Origin: Psychrobacter fozii
GTDB lineage: Bacteria; Pseudomonadota; Gammaproteobacteria; Pseudomonadales; Moraxellaceae
Reading direction: 5' to 3'
NCBI RefSeq assembly: GCF_003217155.1
Contig: NZ_QJSU01000002.1
Coordinates: 1-64,000, forward strand
DNA length: 64,000 bases
Made by a program: the position numbers and the translations under genes
Notes under the pieces: model-generated
Told to the model about the DNA's origin: nothing
The model's database searches: none
The model's input: only the letters and a program-made list of their open reading frames with translations
Shown: positions 1-13,665 of the stretch, one piece after another
How the letters are laid out: each line of letters begins with the position of its first letter
Numbering within the stretch: the first letter of the stretch is position 1

Positions 1-88
1 ACCTGATCCCTTCCCGAACTCAGAAGTGAAACATCGTTGCGCCAATGGTAGTGTGGATTCGTCCATGTGAGAGTAGGTCATCGTCAGC
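1..88 (+). rRNA. rrf: 5S ribosomal RNA, 3' portion (5' end outside window)
   Basis: The first bases match the conserved middle and 3' part of bacterial 5S rRNA: the CCGAACTCAGAAGTGAAAC block followed by the GAGAGTAGGTCATCGTCA end. The 5' end lies before the window. It is immediately followed by a strong intrinsic terminator, so this is the distal end of an rRNA operon read on the + strand. The exact 3' end (about 85-90) is estimated by eye. Confidence 0.93.
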
Positions 89-102
89 TCTCTATTCAAA
101 GT

Positions 103-136
103 AAAACCCCCTTTCGCTAACGCGAAAGGGGGTTTT
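103..136 (+). terminator. rho-independent terminator of the rRNA operon
   Basis: A long GC-rich hairpin, with arms AACCCCCTTTCG and CGAAAGGGGGTT and a short loop, is followed by a T-rich tract. It lies about 15 bases after the 5S gene and is nearly symmetrical, so it could stop transcription in both directions. Confidence 0.93.
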
Positions 137-190
137 CTTTGCTTGTGAAAAATGCAGTGTAGTATTATCTGTGATATCGGTTTAAAGTAG

Positions 191-598
191 ATGAGTAAAA
201 CAATCAATAAAACCAAACTAGAAAGCAAATTAGGACATAAACCGATGTTAATTATCAAACTGACTGATAGCAGAGAAACTCTAGATGACATTGAGAAAGT
301 ATGTCTATATTTAACAACGCACAAAGAGTTGTTGCCTTTGATAAACACTGAAGAATGTCATGATATTTCTTATATTTTAAAGCCAACATTTAGAGCTGAT
401 CATAACGAGTCTGAAAAGAAAGCTCACTGGGAAAAAGTATTTAATGAGTTTACGCTCGCTGATAATAATGGCGATGAAATGCGTTTTTATAGAGAAAAGC
501 AAACAGACGCTTTATACTTTGGTACTAAGAAAGGGTTCGAGACGCTAGAAAGCATCAATAATGACGAACCTGCCATTAAAAGTAGATTTAACAGCTAA
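191..598 (+). CDS. hypothetical protein, 135 aa
   Basis: I do not recognise this protein. It is a hydrophilic, Lys/Glu-rich product with no signal peptide, membrane segment or obvious catalytic motif. The ATG at 191 has only a weak ribosome binding site (TAAAG close upstream). The gene begins just after the rRNA terminator and opens an AT-rich accessory block, which suggests acquired DNA at the rRNA operon boundary. It could be a real orphan gene or a decayed remnant; coding potential is fair but not decisive. Confidence 0.5.
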   Translation: MSKTINKTKLESKLGHKPMLIIKLTDSRETLDDIEKVCLYLTTHKELLPLINTEECHDISYILKPTFRADHNESEKKAHWEKVFNEFTLADNNGDEMRFYREKQTDALYFGTKKGFETLESINNDEPAIKSRFNS

Positions 599-708
599 AG
601 TGTATGGATTACTCAAAGGTAGGCACTACTGATTGACCAAACGGTTTTAGACAAGGCGTAAAACGATGGTAATGCTTGTCTTTAACTAGGTTTATACCAC
701 ACTGCTTA

Positions 709-816
709 TATAGTCGTTGAACTACTAAACCGCTATGGCGTTCCCCGTCCTTAGATGTACTACTTGTAAAATCTGCAGTCAGCTGCCTTGTCCCATTTTA
801 GAGTTCTTTGACTATA
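709..816. repeat. MITE-like relic with imperfect terminal inverted repeats
   Basis: The ends TATAGTCGTTGAACT (709-723) and, read on the other strand, TATAGTCAAAGAACT (802-816) match at 12 of 15 positions and bound about 108 bp with no ORF. The stretch just before it (about 640-700) shares short words such as ACGAT..TAATG and CTTTAACTAGG / CTTAACTAGG with the centre of the element at 5458-5724. The relic may therefore be part of a larger, related element. The call rests only on this symmetry and word sharing. Confidence 0.35.
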
Positions 817-856
817 GATCTGGTAGGAAAGCGTTAAGTCAATAAAGGAAGGATTT

Positions 857-1159
857 ATGTCGATTTGGTCACTAGTTCTAATATCATTTTTGCATATTAC
901 GATTGGTGGGGCTTTTTCACTTGGTTTTCTCTTTTATATTTGTGCAGAAAATAGCCCAGATTTATCTGAATTTGAAAATACTGCTCTGTTTACTTTACTC
1001 ATTGCATATTCAGCCTCTCTTTTGGTGAGCATGGGATTGGCTATTTATTTTTATGTGGCACTTGATAGCGAGTCGTACTACTTATGCTTTTCATTATCTT
1101 GGGGTTTGCTCATACTGCTGTTAGGTTATTGGACCTATATTTCAGCGAGAGTTAGCTAA
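857..1159 (+). CDS. small three-helix membrane protein, 100 aa, unknown function
   Basis: The product is almost wholly hydrophobic, with three predicted membrane segments at about residues 5-27, 43-66 and 75-97 and a short acidic loop (SPDLSEFE) after the first. A strong Shine-Dalgarno sequence (AAGGAAGGA) stands directly before the ATG, which supports expression. I recognise no family. It sits between a MITE-like relic and the HEPN-type gene at 1227, in the same AT-rich accessory block. A role as a membrane partner of its neighbours is possible but is only inference. Confidence 0.65.
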   Translation: MSIWSLVLISFLHITIGGAFSLGFLFYICAENSPDLSEFENTALFTLLIAYSASLLVSMGLAIYFYVALDSESYYLCFSLSWGLLILLLGYWTYISARVS

Positions 1160-1226
1160 TAGCTTATTTGAGACTATTTGGTAATTAGGAATTTTTTTAC
1201 TATAGATTAGACTGAGGTAAAGAAAG

Positions 1227-2066
1227 TTGATTAAAGTTAAATTTGCAGGTATTCAATATTTAGGCGACAGCGGTATTACGCAAACATGTAAAGAGGCAGT
1301 TATACAGCTCATACATAGTGGTAAAAACATACAAGACGTAAAGATACTTACCTTTGAAGAAACCCATTCAAAAGCCCATGCATTGTTGTTAACCGTTGAA
1401 TATGACATTCAAATAGTAATTAAAGGTGGTTTTGCTTCTGGTTACAATGGAGAGGCACCAAAAGGATATGCATATGTCTTAAATTTATTGCGCAACTACA
1501 CAGATAGTATTAATGAATACATAGTCTCAAAATCAACTTTTGAGCGTGTATCTAATTCAAGCCTAACAGTAAAAGATTTAGAGTATATCAATAGTATAAA
1601 ACCAGTGCGTCCTTCTAGGTGGTATGATTCCGCTTATCTATATAAGGAATGTGAGCGCAGTATTTTTAGTGAGTTTCCGCTTACTATTCCTATGGCACTG
1701 CTTGACCCACGCCTGATCCAGCTAGCACTGGATTTTGATAAGAATCCAGATAATGCAATCATGAGTGCATATCGAAAGATTGAATCTATAGTCAGAGAGC
1801 GAACTGGCTTAGATCATGAAAGTAGTACTAAGCTGTTTGCAAAAGCTTTTCAAGGTGATGATTCAATTTTGTATTGGGGAAACCTAGATTCAGGCGAATC
1901 TAAAGGAAGGGCATCCTTGTTTGCTAGTGTATTTATGGCTTATCGCAACAATCGAGCACATCAAGAACCTCGCCATAATTTGAGCGATGATATTCGAGAA
2001 TTTATGTTAATCAATCAGCTATTTATTTTAGAAAGTGAGGCAGTTGTGAGGTACGCGCAAGAGTAA
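1227..2066 (+). CDS. TIGR02391/Ymh-like protein with C-terminal HEPN-type R-x4-H motif
   Basis: The 279-aa product has a TTG start at 1227 with GAGG nine bases upstream. The C-terminal third (about 160-279) has the layout I associate with the TIGR02391 (Hypoth_Ymh) family: YRKIESIVRERTGL, then LFA.AF, and finally RNNRAH (R240 to H245). The last fits the R-x4-H signature of HEPN ribonucleases. The N-terminal 120 residues are unrelated and may be a sensor domain. Ymh-like proteins are often found in phage or defence islands, which fits this AT-rich block. RNase activity is inferred only. The gene is followed 136 bp later by a second HEPN-type gene on the same strand. Confidence 0.7.
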   Translation: MIKVKFAGIQYLGDSGITQTCKEAVIQLIHSGKNIQDVKILTFEETHSKAHALLLTVEYDIQIVIKGGFASGYNGEAPKGYAYVLNLLRNYTDSINEYIVSKSTFERVSNSSLTVKDLEYINSIKPVRPSRWYDSAYLYKECERSIFSEFPLTIPMALLDPRLIQLALDFDKNPDNAIMSAYRKIESIVRERTGLDHESSTKLFAKAFQGDDSILYWGNLDSGESKGRASLFASVFMAYRNNRAHQEPRHNLSDDIREFMLINQLFILESEAVVRYAQE

Positions 2067-2202
2067 TAAAATTCCCAAGTGAACTTATCTAACAGATGCA
2101 AAAATTTTAGATTAGGTCTGATGGTTTATGGATATCAAACTCAGTAATAATATTGATGTGTTTACTATTTAAAATTTGTATTTTTATCTTAAGGTTACGA
2201 AA

Positions 2203-3660
2203 ATGGAATTAGAACACAGTATCTTTAAAAGAATAGAAAATAAAAGGGAGGAGTTTGGCTTACTCTTGAATGCTGCGATAAAGGATGGTCTATCCAAAAT
2301 TTCCGATAGAGTGTCTTCAAAAAAATATATCAGTGGATACTATAATTGGCCTTCAATTTCGTTTAGAGAAAATGGTTTGCCTAATCTTTCATCATCAAAT
2401 TTTCAAGAAATTAAAGAGTATAGAGGTTGTTTTGGATCTAAAGAGGGAGACATTATTGCATCAGATATAAATTCTTTTACTGATTTTCTAAAATTTATAA
2501 AGTCTAATGAAGAGCTTGAAAGCCGATTTATAATGCAAGAGTGGAAGAAGATAGAGGGTAAGGCTTTTGTAAATTTTATAGATGTATTGATTTATAATAT
2601 TATAACAAATGGTATTGAGCGTTATATACATGTTTACGATAGTTTTGAGTACAATGAAAATAAAGTCAAAGATATTATTGACGAAATACAAAATTTTGTA
2701 TTTCTAGGTACATTGCCAGTTGATATAGTAATCCCGATTCTTTTTGTCAATTTTGAATTTGAATCATATGTTTTGTCTGAAGCGATTGAGGTTAGACGGT
2801 TGGTAGACAAAGAACACCTAGCTAGATGTAATATAATATCAAATAACGTCAGTGTTCATAAGTCCGTACTTTCTTCGGCAACACATGCATTGGTCTTAAA
2901 GGGATGGGAAGTAAAGAATAGCGATTATGATATGGATTTCAATACTTTGAACGATATACGAGCATACCCAACTGATCGTATTGATAAGTTCTTTGCTTCA
3001 ATACGGCTAGTTGAAAACGTAAGCACAGGATACGCTCAGATATTTTCTCTAGCTAAATCTTGGATTGGACATTGTAAAGCAGACTTACCTTATGCTGTTG
3101 GTGCTACTACGCGTTCTTACCCATCAAATTTCGAAGACTACTATTGGAATATTGACACCGTTCCGGTAGTTACAAATATCAAAATGGATGAAATTAGTAA
3201 AATATATAGCTTATTAATTGATTCGGAAAAAAACTCAATAGATTTGTCAGTCAAGAGGTTAAATCAATGTCTCGTCCGAGATAGTGAAGAAGATGCTGTG
3301 CTTGATGCAACTATTGCACTGGAAGCATTGCTTGCGGATGACGGAAATCAAGAAATGACTCATAAGTTAGCGATGAGAATAGGAGCTTTGGTAAATTTAG
3401 ATGATTGCTTTAAAAAATCTCCAGAGCAAGCTTTTAAAGATGTAAAAAGTATTTACGCTTACCGTTCAGCGATTGTACATGGAAGCAAAAAACTAGATAA
3501 AAAGCGAGTTATTAAGCTTGAGGGCGATAAAGAAACTACAACTCATATCCTTGCCGTAGAGTATCTCAAATTTGTACTTAAAGTCCTACTTGAAAATCCT
3601 AAATATCAAGATTCGAAATTAATTGATTCAGAGCTCTTGCTTGGTGGAAAAAACGTCTAA
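2203..3660 (+). CDS. ApeA-like HEPN-domain protein, 485 aa
   Basis: I chose the ATG at 2203, which has AAGG eight bases upstream, over an in-frame TTG at 2176. The last ~120 residues resemble the Apea-like HEPN domain: an AIALEALL helix, a region rich in RIGALV-type helices, and the terminal YRSAIVHG, which is an exact R-x4-H motif (R421, H426). The first ~360 residues are a long acidic, aromatic-rich region I cannot assign; in ApeA-type anti-phage proteins the N-terminal part acts as the sensor. Base composition is strongly AT-rich. A role in RNA-cleaving abortive infection is inference. No MNT-type antitoxin gene lies next to it. Confidence 0.7.
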   Translation: MELEHSIFKRIENKREEFGLLLNAAIKDGLSKISDRVSSKKYISGYYNWPSISFRENGLPNLSSSNFQEIKEYRGCFGSKEGDIIASDINSFTDFLKFIKSNEELESRFIMQEWKKIEGKAFVNFIDVLIYNIITNGIERYIHVYDSFEYNENKVKDIIDEIQNFVFLGTLPVDIVIPILFVNFEFESYVLSEAIEVRRLVDKEHLARCNIISNNVSVHKSVLSSATHALVLKGWEVKNSDYDMDFNTLNDIRAYPTDRIDKFFASIRLVENVSTGYAQIFSLAKSWIGHCKADLPYAVGATTRSYPSNFEDYYWNIDTVPVVTNIKMDEISKIYSLLIDSEKNSIDLSVKRLNQCLVRDSEEDAVLDATIALEALLADDGNQEMTHKLAMRIGALVNLDDCFKKSPEQAFKDVKSIYAYRSAIVHGSKKLDKKRVIKLEGDKETTTHILAVEYLKFVLKVLLENPKYQDSKLIDSELLLGGKNV

Positions 3661-3757
3661 GTAACTGTGAATTCTATGCCTTAGCTTTGTTTCTATTGAT
3701 ACTTTCTAATTGATTAATGCATTTAAACACACAATAATAACCACTAAAGAGAAACCC

Positions 3758-4171
3758 ATGATAACCTCAAAAGTAACCTATCAAGGCAATTTACGTACAC
3801 AAGCCATCCATCTACAGTCAAACAATCAAATCATTACTGATGCGCCGACAGACAATCATGGCAAGGGCGAAGCGTTTTCTCCCACTGATTTGCTAGCCAC
3901 CAGTCTGGGCAGTTGTATCTTAACGATTATCGGTATCAAAGCCGAAGCGATGGATATCGATATCTCAGGTACGACCGCCGAAATCACCAAAGTCATGGCT
4001 GCCAAACCAAGGCGTGTGAGTGAAATACACATTATCGTTAATTTTCCGCGTGCATTAGATGAGAGCACCTTAAAACGATTTTATAAAACCGCATTAACGT
4101 GTCCAGTAGGCAATAGCTTGGATCCTGCTATTACTCAAAACTTAGTATTTCATAATGGCACAGAAGCCTAA
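3758..4171 (+). CDS. OsmC family peroxiredoxin-like protein
   Basis: This 137-aa protein has the OsmC/Ohr fold signature. The two conserved cysteines lie in LGSCILTI and ALTCPVGNSL, and an FSPTDLLATSLG helix precedes the first. Members reduce organic hydroperoxides through these cysteines in the cytoplasm; this subgroup (OsmC-like, not Ohr proper) has less certain substrates. I chose the ATG at 3758, which has AAAGAGA upstream and matches where family members begin, over a TTG 48 bases earlier. The next gene starts one base after its stop, so the two are probably co-translated. Confidence 0.85.
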   Translation: MITSKVTYQGNLRTQAIHLQSNNQIITDAPTDNHGKGEAFSPTDLLATSLGSCILTIIGIKAEAMDIDISGTTAEITKVMAAKPRRVSEIHIIVNFPRALDESTLKRFYKTALTCPVGNSLDPAITQNLVFHNGTEA

Positions 4172-4172
4172 C

Positions 4173-4637
4173 ATGGCTAATAAGACTTTACTGATTGTGG
4201 CTCATGCGCCATCACCCAATACTCAGAAATTGGCGCAGGCGGCCTATGACGGTGCCAATCATCCTGATATAGATATCACTGTCGTTCTGAAATCACCGCA
4301 GGACACGCAGCCAGAAGATGTATTGACTGCTGATGCGTTATTATTAGGCACGACTGAGAATTTGTCGTATATGGCAGGGCTGACCAAGGACTTTTTTGAT
4401 CGTTGTTATTATCCTGTGCTAGAAGAAAAGCAGGGTATGCCATTTGCGGTATATATTCGAGCTGGGCATGATGGGACAGGTACTAAGCTTGCTATCAGAA
4501 CCATTACCACAGGACTGCGTTGGTCATGGGTGCAAGAGGTGCTGATACTACAAGGCGATTGGCAAGAGGGCTTTGCTGAGCAAGTAGAAGAGTTGGCGAT
4601 GACGCTAGCTGCTGGGGTCGAGGCAGGTATTTATTAA
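4173..4637 (+). CDS. flavodoxin-like NAD(P)H-dependent reductase family protein
   Basis: The 154-aa product opens with a flavodoxin-type beta strand and phosphate loop (LLIVAHAPSPNTQKLA). It has the later TADALLLGTTEN strand typical of FMN-binding flavodoxin/NQO-like folds, then SYMAGLTKDFFDR. It probably binds FMN and takes part in cytoplasmic redox chemistry; the substrate is unknown. The ATG at 4173 is one base after the OsmC stop. An alternative ATG at 4155 would overlap that gene by 17 bases. The coupling to an OsmC gene fits a shared role in oxidative stress. Confidence 0.75.
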   Translation: MANKTLLIVAHAPSPNTQKLAQAAYDGANHPDIDITVVLKSPQDTQPEDVLTADALLLGTTENLSYMAGLTKDFFDRCYYPVLEEKQGMPFAVYIRAGHDGTGTKLAIRTITTGLRWSWVQEVLILQGDWQEGFAEQVEELAMTLAAGVEAGIY

Positions 4638-13353: not shown

Positions 13354-13429
13354 TGGTGGGCCGACCGCGACTCGAACGCGGGACCAATTGATTAAAAGTC
13401 AACTGCTCTACCAACTGAGCTATCGGCCC
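13354..13429 (-). tRNA. tRNA-Lys (anticodon TTT)
   Basis: On the minus strand a complete 76-nt cloverleaf runs from GGGCCGATAGCTCAG, through the anticodon loop CTTTTAA, to the T-arm GTTCGAGTC. The acceptor GGGCCGA pairs with TCGGCCC, followed by A and an encoded CCA. It is an exact copy of the gene at 13590-13665. Confidence 0.97.
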
Positions 13430-13589: not shown

Positions 13590-13665
13590 TGGTGGGCCGA
13601 CCGCGACTCGAACGCGGGACCAATTGATTAAAAGTCAACTGCTCTACCAACTGAGCTATCGGCCC
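13590..13665 (-). tRNA. tRNA-Lys (anticodon TTT), second copy
   Basis: The sequence is identical to the copy at 13354-13429, including the encoded CCA. The DNA just upstream (minus-strand sense) of both copies shares a diverged segment with a TTTACGAAA.TGTAAAT palindrome. The duplicated unit was therefore probably the tRNA plus its upstream region. Confidence 0.97.

Follow-up and report, generated by a model that had tools for sequence, protein, structure and literature searches.

In PMC3710099 (Anantharaman et al. 2013), Ymh proteins are presented as a HEPN family with a conserved Rx4-6H motif; they occur alone and as fusions with other domains, and some are encoded in operons that also contain restriction systems. 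The same source describes the residue following the arginine of the HEPN motif as usually polar, in most cases N, D or H, and mentions a link between HEPN and MNT proteins (PMC3710099). PD-lambda-3 is treated as an abortive infection system (PMC10952713) and is reported to act in that way (PMC13190303). Here we describe two adjacent plus-strand genes near the start of a 64,000-nucleotide stretch of Psychrobacter fozii DNA (contig NZ_QJSU01000002.1, positions 1 to 64,000; hereafter the window). The gene at 1227-2066 encodes a 279-residue protein that belongs to the Ymh family, and the gene at 2203-3660 encodes a 485-residue protein with a likely HEPN domain at its C-terminus. We regard the two as probably independently acquired HEPN ribonuclease effectors of the abortive-infection type, which are neighbours in a putative recombination hotspot bounded by a 5S ribosomal RNA (rRNA) gene and osmC. 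A search of open-licence papers returned no description of the HEPN pair or of the 5S-osmC site.

An earlier note on this DNA had singled out the two genes for their R-x4-H motifs, their unrelated N-terminal regions and a small membrane protein upstream, and these observations held. Both reading frames are open, RNNRAH is found at R240-H245 of the 279-residue product (1944-1961) and RSAIVH at R421-H426 of the 485-residue product (3463-3480), and a hydrophobic open reading frame (ORF) of 100 amino acids is present at 857-1159. The profile comparison of the two proteins gave a probability of 0.13%, in line with unrelated N-terminal regions. A bare R-x4-H motif is weak evidence on its own, being present in 19 of the 50 non-overlapping ORFs of at least 100 amino acids in the window. 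When N, D, H, S or T was demanded after the arginine and the motif was restricted to the last quarter of the protein, two of the 50 ORFs remained, which are the two HEPN candidates. The serine in RSAIVH is polar, but lies outside the N/D/H trio. The motif pair rises above chance by virtue of the family match for the first protein, of conservation, and of the fold comparison for the second.

By curated family match, the 279-residue protein (TTG start) is a Ymh-family protein and probably a HEPN-domain protein. Its residues 173-250 (1743-1976) match PF09509 with an E-value of 1.6e-12 and 47.8 bits against a cut-off of 25, and the NCBIfam model TIGR02391 is matched slightly under its cut-off (36.9 versus 39.45 bits). 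None of the Pfam, NCBIfam and PADLOC models matched the N-terminal region of about 150 amino acids, for which PHROG gave one weak match (E 0.00057). Ymh was found in 13 of 105 genomes of the genus, as 12 full-length copies (the window's included) and one fragment; an additional fragment is present in G004 (L080). The corresponding counts were 7/293 genomes for an order sample and, with a six-sequence profile, 13/398 for a phylum sample, where most sequences match in the HEPN part only. Nine of the 12 genus copies have a GTG at the second position, which is likely their start. Over the aligned part, 11 genus copies read through without a stop and RNNRAH is invariant in all of these, while the G071 copy carries a stop at codon 18 and the motif RNKRAH; for the G002 and G079 copies a stop was reported within the last few codons. 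In the six-sequence alignment R240, N241, R243, A244 and H245 are invariant. The 11 uninterrupted genus copies are under strong purifying selection, with a median pairwise ratio of nonsynonymous to synonymous substitution rates (dN/dS) of 0.14 and a maximum of 0.20 over 55 pairs. A 5S gene precedes each of the 12 full-length copies, 10 of which are in the 5S-osmC site; the remaining two adjoin 5S genes, with osmC not within the stretch.

No model of Pfam, NCBIfam or PADLOC matches the 485-residue protein (for PADLOC, none at E up to 1), and an interleukin 31 match in Pfam (E 0.24) was dismissed as noise. Relatives at 47-48% identity were found in two Nitrosomonas assemblies and one Pseudohongiella genome assembly, the Pseudohongiella sequence being letter-identical to the G262 protein, and a distant relative on a Rhodococcus plasmid (about 25% identity) is annotated as 'HEPN domain-containing protein'. 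The three close relatives share 30-36% identity with it over residues 1-120, 42-46% over 121-343 and 69% over 344-480, its most conserved part. R421, S422 and H426 are invariant in alignments of three and four sequences, representing four distinct relatives, and a standalone protein of 316 amino acids, itself without family match, shares the C-terminal signature (hhalign probability 95.9%). The structural model is poor overall, with a predicted local distance difference test (pLDDT) score of 47.6, and most of the N-terminus lies below 50. The C-terminal blocks score 55-56 (residues 341-360), 67-86 (361-420), 61 (421-430) and 64-84 (441-480), with a loop at 431-440 scoring 36. VIA-align, run on Foldseek's own 1000 candidates, gave 16 best chains with Z 8.6-7.1, nine of whose titles name HEPN and three more Csm6; the leaders are HEPN-MNT toxins, Csm6 and sacsin HEPN, and the first clearly unrelated row has Z 5.1, although for helical bundles a Z below about 13 may reflect a mere common arrangement or chance. 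Given this moderate fold match and the conservation of the motif, the C-terminal domain is likely of the HEPN fold, an assignment that we consider moderately supported; the domain covers residues ~340-468 (3220-3606). A search by sequence for solved relatives of either HEPN protein returned one row alone, for a quinone reductase (E 0.9), which is noise. In Pseudohongiella a HEPN_AbiU2 gene comes two genes before the relative. On the Rhodococcus plasmid (L123 5076-9841) the distant relative is followed by one gene and then by a RAMP-superfamily CRISPR-associated gene.

The earlier note had further proposed that the two genes form a composite defence module with the membrane protein gene. The distribution data for the genes at 857, 1227 and 2203, which are headed by INDEPENDENCE, indicate that these genes do not form a conserved unit. 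Set against the 13 genus genomes with Ymh, the 485-residue gene is present in 1/105; it was found in 3/390 genomes of the order sample, including the window genome and one C-terminal-only match, and in 2/274 of the class sample, namely the window genome and another C-terminal-only match. None of the loci with relatives of the 485-residue gene contained a Ymh match (one contig being just 3.2 kb), and in genus relatives four other gene families, not the 485-residue gene, come after Ymh. As far as was searched, the exact pair did not co-occur elsewhere. The membrane gene (cargo family c2), which like orf135 was sought in the 73 fetched stretches, occurs in eight loci, one of them partial; it was rejected as part of a module because it comes after a GST gene in six of the eight and is without Ymh in four. 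The survey of the cassette in other genomes thus did not find the gene set conserved, and we reject the composite cassette on the separate distribution of its genes. What survives of the proposal is that both proteins are probably HEPN proteins and that defence genes are found at the site in other genomes; the single module does not. What does recur is a looser pattern, with another R-x4-H gene or a toxin gene after Ymh. A phage origin was rejected, as neither protein was matched in phage records and no relative was found among viral contigs, and so was a plasmid origin, with just one distant plasmid match for each protein.

Across the genus, the 5S-osmC interval (1-3757 in the window; L015-L023 and L057-L115 elsewhere) forms a hypervariable cargo site in which defence-type and metabolic-type genes are mixed. 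An osmC match was obtained in 99 of the 105 genus genomes, and 73 stretches were read, 71 of them with osmC. Fifty-nine of these also had an upstream 5S gene; the other 12, lacking one in the fetched DNA, were excluded, as were L062 and L104 as cargo sources (no 5S within the fetched stretch), and the osmC locus of G096 was not fetched. Across the 59 anchored loci the interval ranges from 187 to 5765 bp (median 2907) and comprises 49 gene contents and 77 clusters of ORFs of at least 90 amino acids. Most such ORFs (132/160) run in the direction of the rRNA operon; of the 28 on the opposite strand, 21 belong to clusters c0 (~580 amino acids, no Pfam match) and c4 (341 amino acids). A transposase was considered for c4 and rejected, since it belongs to the purine nucleoside permease family; c4 recurs, opposite to most cargo, in L059, L068, L069, L095, L015 and L019, and c0 in other loci. 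Neither c4 nor the HEPN/RES gene described below had a plasmid match. From 79 cargo representatives six short ones were dropped and 73 scanned. Among the first 25 of 168 PADLOC families are strong matches to PDC-S19 (7e-74), NsnA (4.4e-63), PD-T4-2_A (3.1e-50), a TIR effector (8.9e-47) and AbiTii (2.7e-38), and among the first 25 of 79 Pfam families are GmrSD, caspase, HEPN_RiboL-PSP and DUF4145. Extra 5S copies, 80-97% identical, are present inside the interval in five of the 59 loci; second or third copies, several of them degenerate, lie between cargo genes in L057, L067, L075, L076 and L091, and the Ymh gene of G096 has a 74% 5S piece at its end (L024 7240-7316). Such internal copies might be expected if cargo enters via recombination at the 5S ends.

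In the mechanism that we infer for the two effectors, which extends to ribonuclease activity, dimerisation, sensing, an anti-phage role and the route of recombination, each protein would be a dormant ribonuclease that is freed on infection through its own N-terminal region, in keeping with what PMC3710099 sets out for HEPN families. The family-specific N-terminal region of each would sense infection or keep the protein inactive. Upon infection the C-terminal HEPN domains would dimerise, the arginine and histidine of facing subunits would make a metal-independent ribonuclease site, and host or phage RNA would be cut, such that growth stops before phage release. Cargo exchange itself would take place by homologous recombination, with the rRNA operon and osmC as anchors. 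Several results weigh against two HEPN effectors of this kind. The PADLOC matches to the Ymh protein are weak and centred on its HEPN part (1e-5 and 2.1e-5). Fold prediction, which the earlier note had suggested for both proteins, yielded the moderate HEPN match for the 485-residue C-terminus (Z 8.6) described above, and for Ymh a single-sequence AlphaFold model, made without alignment, with a pLDDT of 36 that is of no use for the fold. In the 485-residue model the motif block itself scores 61, Foldseek by itself returned unrelated top rows and nothing at E 0.001 or better, and the Z values of VIA-align fall in the range in which helical bundles can agree by chance. The cargo also includes metabolic-type genes (GST, DCC1-like, DoxX-like, short-chain dehydrogenase and the purine nucleoside permease family), and location alone is therefore no proof of defence.

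A different relationship between the two genes is suggested by what lies downstream of Ymh. For 11 of the 12 full-length genus copies, the next gene runs in the same direction and begins at most 272 bp after Ymh, and Ymh may thus belong to a modular two-gene system, with the Ymh subfamily as constant first component and an interchangeable second protein; we consider this unlikely. The partners would be the 485-residue HEPN protein, a HEPN/RES toxin, an R-x4-H protein, a TIR/Mrr-like, a DUF4209-HEPN or a NACHT protein. In the 11 genus copies the genes after Ymh fall into five families without significant mutual similarity: a HEPN/RES-NTD1 plus RES protein in four (Pfam match in G020 and G100, the other two being 91-98% identical), a 409-residue protein with the motif RNRNVH in three (one copy frameshifted), a 369-residue protein in two, a weakly TIR/Mrr-like pair in one and the window's 485-residue protein in one; in the twelfth there is nothing close. 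The pairing is tightest for the HEPN/RES homologue, at least 84% identical and 18-21 bp after Ymh in all four genomes carrying it, and in G100 the pair lies beside a 5S gene away from osmC. HEPN/RES matches occur in 11/105 genomes in total; the seven others show 24-31% identity and do not adjoin a Ymh match. The 409-residue protein (L015:5123-6349, L020:5040-6266 and L021), without family match, likewise comes after Ymh in all three of the 105 genomes having it. Judged by its motif alone it is possibly another large HEPN family; its profile comparison with the 485-residue protein was not significant (probability 1.3%), and so the two C-termini may or may not be related. Beyond the genus, Ymh overlaps a DUF7380-DUF4209 gene (PDC-S39) by 17 bp in G117 (L156), overlaps the ORF of a 1517-residue protein with a NACHT C-terminal domain (NCAB2) in G1023 (L162), and precedes a weakly NucS-like gene at a contig edge in G157. 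These pairings are countered by genomes without a close partner: in G096 no ORF of at least 60 amino acids starts within 390 bp downstream of Ymh, in G1077 only a DUF1186/SEC-C gene follows, 480 bp on, and on a Sphingomonas plasmid the annotated genes next to Ymh lie on the other strand. The 369-residue partner is also found without Ymh (L082) and is 266-272 bp from it in L016 and L019. Moreover, the membrane gene c2, used as a control, is equally varied in its surroundings, with five different downstream neighbours in seven loci versus five in 10 for Ymh, and variable neighbours are hence a property of the site. We find it distinctly unlikely that the Ymh subfamily forms the unchanging half of a modular defence system and that recombination at the rRNA-operon hotspot replaces the other half, and hold the same doubt about one and the same Ymh licensing or triggering a HEPN/RES toxin, the 409-residue protein, the TIR/Mrr-like pair, DUF4209-HEPN, NACHT or the 485-residue HEPN protein. 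In G117 (L156) a weakly HEPN_RiboL-PSP-like gene lies two genes upstream, which makes a series of HEPN-type genes at that locus.

In a toxin-antitoxin-like arrangement, one of the two HEPN proteins or a small neighbour would hold the other in check, in the manner of an MNT antitoxin. MNT antitoxins are the classical partners of HEPN toxins, and HEPN-MNT chains top the fold list of the 485-residue protein. No nucleotidyltransferase family was found in the seven site proteins scanned, however, and the two HEPN genes do not travel together. Both proteins also keep R-x4-H, and hence neither looks like an inactivated antitoxin, which leaves such a toxin-antitoxin arrangement very improbable. Housekeeping or stress ribonucleases acting on host RNA, without a defence role and by chance beside the rRNA operon, would fit the metabolic-type cargo at the same site and the co-direction of most cargo with the operon. 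They would be harder to reconcile with the patchy distribution (13/105 and 1/105), with the defence-type genes at the site elsewhere and with the low G+C content of the two genes (36.8% for 1227-2066 and 33.2% for 2203-3660, against 43.0% for the whole window), and we judge this explanation improbable as well.

The remaining features of the site, all on the plus strand, follow its two anchors. The window starts within a 5S rRNA gene, the 3' part of which (1-89; Rfam RF00001, 54.6 bits) closes an rRNA operon and forms the left anchor of the hotspot. Next to it, at 103-136, lies a strong terminator-like stem-loop, with a 15-pair stem, eight G-C pairs and a T-rich tail; terminator-like sites in 1-4300 were no more frequent than in shuffled sequence (2 observed versus 2.0 expected), but this one has a far longer stem. 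The small protein orf135 (191-598; cargo family c3) had no family above cut-off in the Pfam and NCBIfam scans and is present in seven loci, in six of which a GST gene comes after it. In the window the stretch between orf135 and the membrane gene (599-856, 258 bp) is without this gene (c8), which occupies its place in six related loci, and ~601-800 shows no similarity to the other loci that were fetched; a replacement may have left this stretch as its scar. The membrane gene follows at 857-1159 and is not specific to the HEPN genes. Beyond the HEPN pair, the OsmC-family gene (3758-4171; PF02566, 6.5e-13) forms the right anchor, and the FMN-reductase-like gene at 4155-4637 (PF03358, E 0.00036, below cut-off) adjoins osmC here as in the fetched loci. 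Farther along the window, two tRNA-Lys(TTT) genes with equal Rfam score lie on the minus strand at 13354-13429 and 13590-13665, 160 bp apart.

As a defence hotspot the finding is ordinary; worth keeping are the rarely found 485-residue subfamily and the lead given by the Ymh pairings. The former is a HEPN-like subfamily without a Pfam, NCBIfam or PADLOC model, represented in Nitrosomonas, Pseudohongiella and, distantly, Rhodococcus. The latter, if the modular arrangement were true, would amount to a shared trigger with swappable effectors. The stretch between the rRNA operon and osmC is a rich cargo store in this genus, differing between most genomes and including defence genes, and is consequently a good place to seek new systems.

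Compared with described systems, the locus shares features with several. The window's Ymh protein resembles the Ymh HEPN family (PF09509/TIGR02391) in a domain above the Pfam cut-off, a retained R-x4-H motif and a site with defence genes, and differs from it in the N-terminal region of about 150 amino acids and in a TIGR02391 score just under the cut-off. The 485-residue protein is built like ApeA and other large HEPN proteins, with a long N-terminal region and a C-terminal HEPN-like domain carrying R-S-x3-H-G, a signature that we take to be similar in ApeA. It nevertheless lacked PADLOC matches at E up to 1 and had no ApeA or other HEPN match in Pfam at E up to 10, libraries that presumably contain an ApeA model. 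For PD-lambda-3, the PD-Lambda-3_B model matches residues 171-251 of the Ymh protein (E 2.1e-5), whereas the neighbouring 485-residue protein matches no PADLOC model; nor was a second component of that system seen in the other three site proteins scanned, for which PADLOC gave nothing at E up to 1. Finally, the C6orf70/DUF4209 HEPN gene (PDC-S39) beside Ymh in G117 is of a different family from the window's second gene and its ORF overlaps Ymh, but there, as in the window, two different HEPN genes stand in tandem.

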